In this document: positions 44,084 to 46,850 of the stretch, piece by piece
Numbering within the stretch: position 1 is the stretch's first letter
How the letters are laid out: each line of letters starts with the position of its first letter
From: Deltaproteobacteria bacterium
GTDB lineage: Bacteria > Myxococcota_A > Polyangia > Polyangiales > JADJMO01
Direction: 5' to 3'
Length of the DNA stretch: 64,000 nt
NCBI GenBank assembly: GCA_025363655.1
Contig: JANYDK010000134.1
Span: 1 to 64,000, forward strand
Translations under genes and position numbers: made by a program
The notes under the pieces: model-generated
Databases searched by the model: none
Told to the model about the DNA's origin: nothing
The model's input: the letters and a program-made list of their open reading frames with translations, nothing else

Positions 44084-45283
44084 TCAAGGTGGCGCGCTCC
44101 CTTCCGCGACCAGCGCCTCGATCGCCTCCTCGAGCGGCACCACGCGTGAACCCCGCTCGCTCCTGATTGCCACCGATCGCGCCTCCGCCTCGCGCCTCCC
44201 GATCGCCCAAAAACGAGGTACTCCGCGCTCGTGGGCGAGGGCGACTTTGCGCGCGATGGTGGAACCTTCCACGTCGAGGACGACCCTCGCGCCGCGCGCC
44301 TGCAGTCGCCTTCCGATCTCCTCCGCGTACGCGCGCTGATCTTCGGCGATGCTCGCGATCACCACTTGCTCGGGCGCGAGCCAGAGCGGCAAGACGCCAT
44401 GGTGATGCTCCAGGAGCACGCCGACGAAGCGCTCGAGGCTGCCGAGCACGGCGCGGTGGAGCATCACCGGCCGAACCCGTTCACCGCGTGCGTCGATGTA
44501 GTGGAGGCCGAGCCGCTCGGGCAGCACCATGTCGAGCTGGATGGTGCCGCACGACCAGGCGCGCCCGTGGACGTCGCGAAGGACGAACTCCAGCTTCGGT
44601 CCGTAGAACGCGCCTTGCCCCGGCTGCGGCTCGAGCTCGCCGAGCTCCGCCTCGACGGCGCACGCTCGCAGCATCGCCTCTGCGCGATCCCAGACCTCGT
44701 CGCTCCCCGCGCGCACCGCGGGCCTGCTGGAGAAGCGCACGAGCATCGAATCGAATCCGAAGTCTCGGTAGACGCGCCGGAGCAAGTGACAGAATCGACG
44801 GATTTCTCCGCCGATTTGTTCCTCTGCGCAGAAGATATGCGCGTCGTCCTGCACGAAGTTCCGCACCCGCAAGAGTCCATGGAGCACGCCGCTCGGCTCG
44901 TTGCGATGGCACGAACCGAACTCGGCGAGCCGCATCGGCAGATCGCGGTACGACGGGGCGCTGCGCTGGAAAATCTGCCCGTGACCGGGACAGTTCACCG
45001 GCTTCATCGCCATCACGCGATCACCGTCGCGCACTTGGTACATGTGCTCCGCGAAATTCACCCAGTGACCGCTCGCCTCCCAAAGGGCGCGATCGATCAG
45101 CTGCGGCGTCCGTACTTCTTGGTAGCCGTCTTCGGCGACGCGACGGCGAATGTGCTCTTCGACGGCGCGGTAGAGCGCGAAGCCGCGCGGATGCCAGAAG
45201 ACCATTCCAGGGGCTTCGTCTTGGAGATGGAACAGCGACATGCGCTGACCGATGGCGCGGTGATCATGAATGTCGAGAGACAT
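44084..45283 (-). CDS. thrS: Threonyl-tRNA synthetase without TGS and editing domains
   Basis: The 399-residue product covers only the class II catalytic core and the anticodon-binding domain. Key parts are DHRAIGQRMSLFHLQDEAPG, the zinc-binding MKPVNCPGHGQIF, FGSCHRNEPSG, QDDAHIFC, MLHRAVLGSLERFVG, then WLAPEQVVIASI for anticodon binding. Normal bacterial ThrRS is about 640 residues; the TGS and the editing domain that clears Ser-tRNA-Thr are missing. ATG 45283 follows AGAGGA and has no in-frame room for them upstream. A Thr-rich leader frame and hairpin precede it, suggesting induction when Thr-tRNA is short. Confidence 0.92.
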   Translation of the reverse strand: MSLDIHDHRAIGQRMSLFHLQDEAPGMVFWHPRGFALYRAVEEHIRRRVAEDGYQEVRTPQLIDRALWEASGHWVNFAEHMYQVRDGDRVMAMKPVNCPGHGQIFQRSAPSYRDLPMRLAEFGSCHRNEPSGVLHGLLRVRNFVQDDAHIFCAEEQIGGEIRRFCHLLRRVYRDFGFDSMLVRFSSRPAVRAGSDEVWDRAEAMLRACAVEAELGELEPQPGQGAFYGPKLEFVLRDVHGRAWSCGTIQLDMVLPERLGLHYIDARGERVRPVMLHRAVLGSLERFVGVLLEHHHGVLPLWLAPEQVVIASIAEDQRAYAEEIGRRLQARGARVVLDVEGSTIARKVALAHERGVPRFWAIGRREAEARSVAIRSERGSRVVPLEEAIEALVAEGSAPP

Positions 45284-45349
45284 GAGATTCCTCTTATTTT
45301 TCCGTGGTTTTCGGTGCTGCGGGCGCGCCGGACACGGGAGGAATCCTTC

Positions 45350-45384
45350 GAAACGACGAAGGCCCAACCGTCTCCGGCTGGGCC
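45350..45384 (-). terminator. Attenuator hairpin ahead of thrS
   Basis: On the minus strand GGCCCAGCCG (45384-45375) and CGGTTGGGCC (45370-45361) form a ten-pair stem (one G-T) with a GAGA loop, followed by TTCGTCGTTT. It lies 26 bases after the leader stop and 77 before thrS. An alternative pairing of GGCTTGG in the leader frame with CCCAGCC of this stem would prevent it. Confidence 0.65.
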
Positions 45385-45410
45385 CTTGTTTCGCGTTCGC
45401 GTGGCTGTCT

Positions 45411-45488
45411 TCAGCGCAGCGGAACGACGACCAAGCCCGCCGGGGCGGAGGTCGTCGTCGTCGTTTGCTGGAGGGACATCACGGACAT
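45411..45488 (-). CDS. Threonine leader peptide of thrS
   Basis: A 25-codon frame starts with ATG at 45488 and stops with TGA at 45413-45411. Codons 9-13 are ACG, ACG, ACG, ACG, ACC, giving five threonines in a row (QQTTTTTS). A GC stem (CCGCC-CCG-GCGG) lies directly after the Thr codons, then the region GGCTTGG that can pair with the downstream attenuator. This is the textbook layout by which ribosome stalling at scarce Thr-tRNA lets transcription continue. The inferred transcription start is at or next to the ATG, so it may be leaderless. Confidence 0.75.
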   Translation of the reverse strand: MSVMSLQQTTTTTSAPAGLVVVPLR

Positions 45489-45494
45489 GCGCCG

Positions 45495-45523
45495 AAGATG
45501 AGGCCTGTCGTCGTCTTTGTCAA
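45495..45523 (-). promoter_or_regulatory. Candidate promoter for the thr leader and thrS
   Basis: On the minus strand TTGACA (45523-45518) and CATCTT (45500-45495) are spaced by 17 bases. The -35 is perfect; the -10 matches at three positions. The start would fall about 45488, the first base of the leader ATG. It lies after the stop of the TonB-like gene (45543). Confidence 0.55.
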
Positions 45524-45542: not shown

Positions 45543-46850
45543 TCAGTGCAAACGCCATCCACCTTGCACCGGCACACGAATCGTCACCGCGCCCATCGAC
45601 AGCTGATCGGGCACCGGCTCGAGCAGACCGGCGGCGCGAATGGCGAAGACCACGTTCTTGTCGAAGATGCCGAAGCCGCTCGGACGAATCACCACCACGT
45701 CGACGACGTTGCCGGTCTTGGCGATGGTGAGATCGACGATCACCGTGCCGCTCCGCAAATCGAGCTCTTCTTCCTTGGGGAACGTCTCGCGCACGATCGG
45801 CTCGAGGCGTTTTTGCAGCTGATGGAAGAAGGCGAGTCGCCTCGCTTCGCGGAGTGCATCGAGCGCCCCCGGACCATCTCCGAGCGCGACCGTCTTGCTT
45901 CCGCCGCCGCTCGTCCCGCCGGCGCCAGGATCGCCGCCGCCGCCAGCGCCCCCGACGCCTTCGCCCGTCTTGCCGCCGCCGAACGTCGAGGTGTCGACGA
46001 GGCTCTTGAGCGCAGCGTTCGCTTGATCGGCGTTGCCGTTGTCGGCCGCGGCGCCTTTGTCGTTCGCCATCACGCTCGGCTTGCCCTTGTCGACGTCGGG
46101 GCGAGCCTTCACCACCGACGCCCCGGCGAGCTGCATCGAGCCGATGCTGGTGCCGTAGTCGGCGCCCGGAGTCTTCGCAGCGATCTTCCCCCCGAGCGTC
46201 TCGCCACCGGGGCTCTTTTGCTTCTCGCCCTCGCCGTCTTTCGGTGTCCCGGCGGCGCCGAGCGTCTGTCCGAGCACGGTCGCCGGCGCCATCGAAGACC
46301 CTGCAGCGGCATCGCTCACCGCCGACGGATGGCGCTCGAAGCGGAAGCCCTTGCCCGACGAAACGAACGTCAGCTCCATCGGTTCGACCGCCTCGCGTCG
46401 ATCGACCTCGGTCTTTCGGTCCTTCGAAGCGTCGAGGTGGTTCTCCTGATCGCGCACGACGTCGTCGCGCAGCGCGGAGGCGACGGTGTCCTGCTCGGGA
46501 CGCGGCGAGAGGTTCTTCGCCGTCGTCGTCACCATCGAATCGCCGCCCTTTCCAGCCTTTTCGTCATCGATCATCGCCACCTTGGCGCCGCCGGCGAGCT
46601 CGGGTGCGTTGGGCGGCGGAGGCGTGATCGGCGCAGCTGGCTCGGCCTGCTCGTCGGTTCCTTCGGAGGTCGGGAGCTCGACGATGATCGGCTCGTCGGT
46701 GGCCGGCGTCGGGAACGAATGATCGGGCTCGGGTTGCGGCGGCTCGGTTCGACCAATCCCGCGCGCGACGGCGATCGCGCCGACGACGGCGACGAAGCCA
46801 TGAAGGACGAGCGACACGATCCCTGCCGGGAGCGCGCCACCACCTCTCAC
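45543..46850 (-). CDS. TonB-like protein with a C-terminal TonB domain
   Basis: The product (435 residues from GTG 46850) has one N-terminal membrane segment (IVSLVLHGFVAVVGAIAVA), a long Pro-, Gly- and Ala-rich periplasmic spacer (about 40-330) and a C-terminal TonB/TolA-like domain with SGTVIVDLTIAKTGNVVDVVVIRPSGFG and FDKNVVFAIRAAG. It could pass energy from ExbBD to outer-membrane receptors. No exbB/exbD is near. GTG 46907 would overlap the fabH remnant; GTG 46850, 16 bases after its stop and with GAGG upstream, is preferred. Confidence 0.75.
   Translation of the reverse strand: MRGGGALPAGIVSLVLHGFVAVVGAIAVARGIGRTEPPQPEPDHSFPTPATDEPIIVELPTSEGTDEQAEPAAPITPPPPNAPELAGGAKVAMIDDEKAGKGGDSMVTTTAKNLSPRPEQDTVASALRDDVVRDQENHLDASKDRKTEVDRREAVEPMELTFVSSGKGFRFERHPSAVSDAAAGSSMAPATVLGQTLGAAGTPKDGEGEKQKSPGGETLGGKIAAKTPGADYGTSIGSMQLAGASVVKARPDVDKGKPSVMANDKGAAADNGNADQANAALKSLVDTSTFGGGKTGEGVGGAGGGGDPGAGGTSGGGSKTVALGDGPGALDALREARRLAFFHQLQKRLEPIVRETFPKEEELDLRSGTVIVDLTIAKTGNVVDVVVIRPSGFGIFDKNVVFAIRAAGLLEPVPDQLSMGAVTIRVPVQGGWRLH

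Follow-up and report, generated by a model that had tools for sequence, protein, structure and literature searches.

A threonine-codon leader that most likely switches on a spare threonyl-tRNA synthetase when charged threonine tRNA runs short

On the minus strand of the window, by which we mean the whole 64-kb stretch of DNA that was analysed, a short leader frame encoding MSVMSLQQTTTTTSAPAGLVVVPLR lies about 130 nt ahead of a gene for threonyl-tRNA synthetase (ThrRS) and is followed by a GC hairpin of 12 pairs. This arrangement raises the question of whether the leader serves as a sensor of threonine supply and, if so, which step of expression it controls and what kind of synthetase it serves. 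We consider it very probable that this gene, here called thrS2, is under ribosome-mediated attenuation through threonine codons, a degree of confidence that applies to attenuation as such and is lower for the split between its possible outputs, and the leader most likely switches on a spare ThrRS when charged threonine tRNA runs short. The argument is built on the following features, all on the minus strand, with RNA strands numbered 1 to 6 in the order of transcription and pairings written as 1:2, 2:3 and so on.

45523-45518, minus strand: -35 box TTGACA of the presumed leader promoter (from sequence).
45500-45495, minus strand: weak -10 element CATCTT at 17-nt spacing from the -35 box (from sequence).
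45488-45411, minus strand: leader peptide ORF of 25 codons, MSVMSLQQTTTTTSAPAGLVVVPLR followed by a stop codon (from sequence).
45464-45450, minus strand: run of five threonine codons, ACG ACG ACG ACG ACC, which is strand 1 and the presumed stall site (from sequence).
45444-45418, minus strand: strand 2 (GGCGGGCTTGGTCGTCGTT...), partner of either strand 1 or strand 3 (from folding and co-variation).
45386-45375 and 45370-45359, minus strand: strands 3 and 4, which form the 12-pair presumed attenuator hairpin (from folding and co-variation).
45358-45349, minus strand: moderately T-rich tail CGTCGTTTCG after the UU that closes the stem (from sequence).
45344-45338, minus strand: strand 5, ATTCCTC, complementary to the Shine-Dalgarno region of thrS2 (from co-variation of 5:6).
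45293-45287, minus strand: strand 6, GAGGAAT, the Shine-Dalgarno region of thrS2 (from sequence).
45283-44084, minus strand: thrS2, encoding a truncated ThrRS paralogue of 399 aa with its ATG at 45283 (from domain search).

A preliminary description of this DNA had proposed a frame of 25 codons with five consecutive threonine codons (four ACG, one ACC), which is indeed present, and a second in-frame ATG at 45479 on the minus strand offers an alternative start. Later within the same ORF lies GGTCGTCGT, which is complementary to the five threonine codons. The TTGACA element reported just upstream was found as well, 35 nt from the leader ATG and with a weak -10 element at suitable distance, and from the placement of these two boxes we infer a transcription start at the leader ATG or shortly ahead of it; a generic promoter scan of the leader region returned nothing relevant. 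Among the leaders of related genes introduced below, 19 of 33 clusters show a -35 motif TTG[AC]C at 28 to 48 nt upstream of the leader start, compared with a control frequency of 2.4% per 25-nt window.

The hairpin, which starts 24 nt past the leader stop codon, had been described as a GC stem of ten pairs, but comprises 12. The T-containing run behind it also exists as a T-rich tail, though it is broken (TTCGTCGTTT) and was missed by a generic terminator scan. A competition between GGCTTGG of the leader and CCCAGCC of the hairpin was recovered at 45437-45431 with 45382-45376 and turned out to be part of a longer 2:3 duplex (45444-45418 with 45401-45375, about -28.7 kcal/mol); strand 4 of the window has no good partner overlapping strand 5. 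The 251-nt leader folds more stably than 200 of 200 dinucleotide shuffles (z -4.0), and the leader ORF is the only short ORF with at least five consecutive threonine codons on either strand of the window, so that, together with the recurrence in relatives, this layout is not explained by chance. An Rfam search of the window detected no known riboswitch, leader or T-box at gathering score. A search of the leader at E up to 1 gave only a sub-threshold match to the molybdenum-cofactor riboswitch at 45346-45463 on the minus strand (20.5 bits against a gathering score of 36), which we take as chance similarity of GC hairpins.

The downstream gene had been named thrS and does encode a ThrRS, but a truncated, editing-less paralogue and not the housekeeping enzyme. 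Its 399-aa product contains only the class II core (PF00587) and the anticodon-binding domain (PF03129), with TGS and editing (tRNA_SAD) domains absent, and scores 436 bits against TIGR00418 (cut-off 384). Within E. coli ThrRS (1qf6), it matches the catalytic fragment of residues 242-628, which has been crystallised as 1evk and others. Residues C98, R127, H149 and H276, which correspond to the catalytic and zinc residues of E. coli ThrRS, are invariant among 24 relatives of the truncated protein and, since these residues required of a ThrRS are kept, ThrRS2 is probably an active threonine-charging enzyme without editing. The same genome also encodes, at another place (G000:C125), a full-length ThrRS that has the editing domain PF07973, and ThrRS2 is presumably a stand-by or back-up synthetase. 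A maximum-likelihood tree built from 75 catalytic domains places the 31 truncated proteins among them in one clade (support 100/99), separate from every full-length enzyme of myxobacteria and proteobacteria. Inspection by eye of the flanking ORFs of family members revealed no consistent neighbour gene.

We then assembled 53 truncated-ThrRS genes that were chosen by protein score and blind to the leader, comprising 44 from Myxococcota (found by order, class and phylum searches and with readable upstream DNA) and nine from Alpha- and Betaproteobacteria; several of these loci come from metagenome bins, and one (L043) matches a metagenome-assembled genome named Byssovorax (L063). A short leader ORF with at least four consecutive threonine codons precedes 50 of the 53, including all 44 myxobacterial members (e.g., MSLAFARTTTTTTTREAGR, MARLARSTATTTTRHGGPVVVRAPR and MLRRATTATTTTTLPGGVGRVRVR), with runs of four to nine threonine codons across the 50 genes. 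Alphaproteobacterial leaders follow the same plan (MHRVAHLCTTTTTTTRFGGPDGVVMR, MNAMRQNPSTTTTTTASGGRSCGRAR; two with TTTWT), and the betaproteobacteria Burkholderia arboris (MNARFVTTTTTTTTTANGGLGGGCTS) and Caballeronia sp. SBC2 also have a truncated ThrRS with a leader. Runs of at least four threonine codons were found upstream of only 1/32 full-length myxobacterial and 1/78 full-length proteobacterial thrS genes. The myxobacterial case (L027, genome G040) has four ACN codons about 154 nt upstream. Within the leader runs, ACC was counted 174 times, ACG 92 times, ACT 31 times and ACA once, and this variation at third positions fits selection on the peptide and not on a hairpin alone.

Two loci deserve a separate mention. 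The alphaproteobacterial locus L199 (genome G796) encodes a truncated ThrRS behind the same hairpin and has lost the threonine run, with only three threonines scattered among isoleucine and valine in its leader MQSIILTVATIKVTAVGGALGRCA, a change that might reflect an altered amino-acid specificity. A plasmid match from Acetobacter (H5) was rejected as a full-length ThrRS. On a plasmid of Acetobacter oryzifermentans (L205, 99084-103253), a full-length thrS lies beside annotated genes for a transcriptional repressor and an ABC transporter, a neighbourhood that resembles the setting of the second, zinc-regulated ThrRS in Anabaena.

For the co-variation analysis, we compared the duplex energies of own and foreign strand pairs, double-centred against composition, and permuted the cluster representatives 20,000 times. 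The final run covered 49 leaders in 33 clusters with six strands each and all 15 strand pairs. Each of the five adjacent pairs co-varies, most strongly 3:4 (z -11.2), followed by 2:3 (z -7.5), 5:6 (z -6.9), 1:2 (z -4.2) and 4:5 (z -3.0), while none of the ten non-adjacent pairs is significant (z -1.5 to +1.8). An earlier run with 29 clusters returned the same five adjacent pairs with a control pair, 3:5, at z -2.2, and trimming the boundary of 4:5 against a possible artefact brought this pair to z -1.9 in one version, while z -3.0 was retained in the final run. Compensatory changes are readily seen for 5:6, where ATTCCTC:GAGGAAT of the window corresponds to CCGTTCC:GGAATGG (L008), GGTCTCC:GGAGACC (L009), CTCCGTC:GACGGAG (L036) and TCCTTGG:CCAAGGA (L053) in relatives. 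The mutually exclusive pairings 1:2/3:4 and 2:3 that characterise an attenuator thus appear to be in place, and the comparison supports the leader ORF, its threonine run and the co-variation of the pairings. The preliminary description had named conservation in relatives as one test of its proposal of amino-acid attenuation ahead of thrS, and the proposal is upheld in that the threonine codons and both pairings are kept.

These comparative data also bear on the most trivial explanation of the locus, by which the hairpin would terminate the upstream gene and the leader ORF would be untranslated. That gene (454 aa) is co-directional with thrS2 and ends at 45543, with its stop codon about 20 nt before TTGACA, as such a coincidence would have it. 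It would leave unexplained why threonine-run ORFs recur before the orthologues, why their third positions vary and why the strands co-vary; being already contradicted by this comparison, it is hardly credible.

How the pairings might exclude each other was studied by folding. With all strands present at equilibrium and strand 1 blocked, the mean probability of 3:4 drops from 0.90 to 0.55-0.63 and 3:4 often still beats 2:3, while in the window this hairpin is unchanged at 0.82; predicted accessibility of the ribosome-binding site does not change on stalling either. As equilibrium folding with masked strand 1 discriminated poorly, we instead folded the RNA as it exists before strand 4. On average, 2:3 then forms with a probability of 0.15 if no ribosome is present, of 0.76 if one has stalled in the middle of the threonine run and of 0 if one has reached the stop codon, and the probability exceeds 0.5 under stalling in 28 of 29 clusters; shuffled versions of arm 2 also reach about 0.56 when stalled because this arm is G-rich. 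Since 3:4 outcompetes 2:3 at equilibrium in many leaders, the switch must be kinetic, i.e., co-transcriptional, and classical attenuators likewise rely on such kinetics.

We therefore picture the attenuator in conditional terms as follows. Transcription would begin at or just before the leader ATG and, as long as Thr-tRNA is plentiful, the translating ribosome would pass the threonine codons and reach the stop codon, so that strands 3 and 4 form their hairpin and RNA polymerase terminates there; in any read-through RNA, helix 5:6 would keep the ribosome-binding site masked. When Thr-tRNA is scarce, the ribosome would stall on the threonine run and cover strand 1, leaving strand 2 to pair with strand 3 before strand 4 exists, so that 3:4 would not form and thrS2 would be expressed. 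In some of the genomes, strand 4, left without its partner, may additionally pair with strand 5 and thereby unmask the ribosome-binding site.

The output of this switch may be termination, masked translation or both. Across all leaders, T is enriched directly after hairpin 3:4 (3.4 per 9 nt compared with 1.7 in the remaining spacer, p = 7e-5). Canonical terminators are found in alpha- and betaproteobacterial members (e.g., GGCCCCGCCGGCGACGACGGGGCCTTTTCTTTT), and textbook U-tracts are seen in these and a few myxobacterial members (e.g., GACGGGGCCTTTTCTTTT and GACGGGGCTTTTTTC), with strong ones also in L130, L150 and L137-L140. Given this T enrichment and these U-tracts, we favour the view that the switch ancestrally and commonly acts by terminating transcription and that the masked ribosome-binding site adds a second layer. 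It is conceivable, though in our view somewhat doubtful, that transcription attenuation is the whole story, with 3:4 as terminator and helix 5:6 devoid of any regulatory role. The strong U-tracts and overall T enrichment would agree with this simpler account, as would the weakness of 4:5, the faintest of the adjacent pairs in co-variation. Yet the co-variation of 5:6 comes close to that of the core pairs, this helix covers the ribosome-binding site in most clusters, and many myxobacterial tails, that of the window included, would make poor terminators.

The opposite extreme would be attenuation of translation without any termination, at least where U-tracts are weak, by an ermC-like relay of 1:2/3:4/5:6 against 2:3/4:5. 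U-tracts are indeed weak in the window, in Sorangium-like leaders and in most myxobacteria, and the Sorangium-like leaders feature a near-perfect 4:5 (CCGGACGGGGC with GCTCCGTCCGG, about -21 kcal/mol) that adds to the co-variation of 4:5 and 5:6. Nevertheless, the T enrichment after 3:4, the canonical terminators of proteobacterial members and the unchanged site accessibility predicted by folding make this account unlikely. In the thrS operator of the E. coli type, ThrRS binds tRNA-Thr-like hairpins at the ribosome-binding site of its own mRNA; helix 5:6 looks like a simple masking hairpin. Our best reading remains termination combined with masking. In its fullest form, it would be a six-strand relay in which one stalled ribosome controls both termination (3:4) and unmasking (5:6 against 4:5) of an editing-less ThrRS and which Myxococcota, Alphaproteobacteria and Betaproteobacteria have inherited as a single unit, a proposal that we put forward tentatively and hold at slightly less than an even chance.

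A different question is what the induced enzyme is good for. Myxobacteria and Burkholderia compete with antibiotic producers, and inhibition of ThrRS by natural compounds such as obafluorin or borrelidin would lower Thr-tRNA as well and thereby set off the switch, so that the leader could be an attenuator as proposed while ThrRS2 is an inducible resistance enzyme. The producer of obafluorin itself has a second, resistant ThrRS, ObaO (PMC11252418). A change of Gly463 in E. coli ThrRS confers resistance to both compounds (PMC11252418), but all 24 family members checked keep glycine at the equivalent position, and no biosynthetic cluster lies beside the gene within the short flanks inspected. Resistance to obafluorin or borrelidin is thus not supported at Gly463, the single residue examined, and we regard this role as improbable compared with that of a stand-by enzyme called upon when charged threonine tRNA runs short.

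Several known systems resemble parts of this arrangement. The attenuator of the E. coli thrABC operon (Rfam Thr_leader) similarly involves threonine codons read in a leader peptide, but it serves threonine biosynthesis with mixed threonine and isoleucine codons, whereas the leader described here precedes a synthetase gene, has a pure threonine run and gives no Rfam match. Closer in target are E. coli pheST with its PheM leader and the leuS and trpS attenuators of Streptomyces, which likewise place a leader with cognate codons and alternative hairpins before a synthetase gene; a survey of Actinobacteria describes leuS and trpS attenuators and also mentions pheST, but has none for threonine (PMC1262725). 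These systems control the housekeeping synthetase, while here the amino acid is threonine, the target is a truncated paralogue and a helix masking the ribosome-binding site is conserved. For Streptomyces lividans, a leader thrL with two threonine residues has been proposed before thrS (PMC8079986). It shares the idea of a threonine leader ahead of a ThrRS gene, but is a prediction from a single genome with one hairpin and no U-run, compared with four to nine threonines, 50 genes and co-variation in the present case. This was the one proposed threonine leader before thrS that we found in the open-access literature searched. Our searches of the same literature found no attenuator described for a synthetase in Myxococcota.

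In the course of these searches, we came across another set of threonine leaders in the betaproteobacterial family Chromobacteriaceae (L177-L195), first seen in Vogesella alkaliphila (L114:1115-1153), where the full-length housekeeping thrS has its own leader in 19 of 19 readable loci. These leaders (MFKRTTTTRISR, VKHWRTTTTRYSHAC and MSRTTTTGFSR) are followed by a strong intrinsic terminator (AAAGTGCGGCTCAAGCCGCACTTTTTTTTT), and most of them directly follow an apparent tRNA gene. From its sequence features, this looks like an independent, convergent ThrRS attenuator. Control of ThrRS by threonine leaders is, given these leaders and the S. lividans proposal, not confined to myxobacteria.

With regard to function, the nearest parallels to ThrRS2 are synthetase paralogues that come on once the main enzyme fails, namely Bacillus subtilis thrZ, the his-leader paralogues of bacilli and T2 of Anabaena. 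The thrZ gene encodes a full-length enzyme and is controlled by T-boxes, while thrS2 would combine a ribosome-read leader with an editing-less enzyme. In bacilli, the paralogues hisS*/hisZ are preceded by a histidine leader (PMC2965389) and, as with thrZ, a synthetase or synthetase-like paralogue is induced when the charged form of its own tRNA becomes scarce, as we propose for thrS2. Anabaena T2 (thrS2) is a stress-expressed second ThrRS with impaired editing that forms heterodimers with T1, which supply editing (PMC4787780). It is comparable to ThrRS2 in lacking proficient editing, but has kept a degenerate editing domain and is under Zur/zinc control, whereas in ThrRS2 the domain is absent and control would be exerted through threonine codons.

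The locus thereby raises the question of why an error-prone ThrRS should be used when Thr-tRNA is short, be it as a back-up, for deliberate mistranslation or as a rescue in which the main enzyme provides editing in trans, and how termination and translation might both be controlled by one stalled ribosome through one chain of strands. The compact module of leader and thrS2 appears to have moved between phyla. For the Myxococcota, these findings add a well-supported amino-acid attenuator and, with it, a threonine sensor tied to a naturally editing-less ThrRS.
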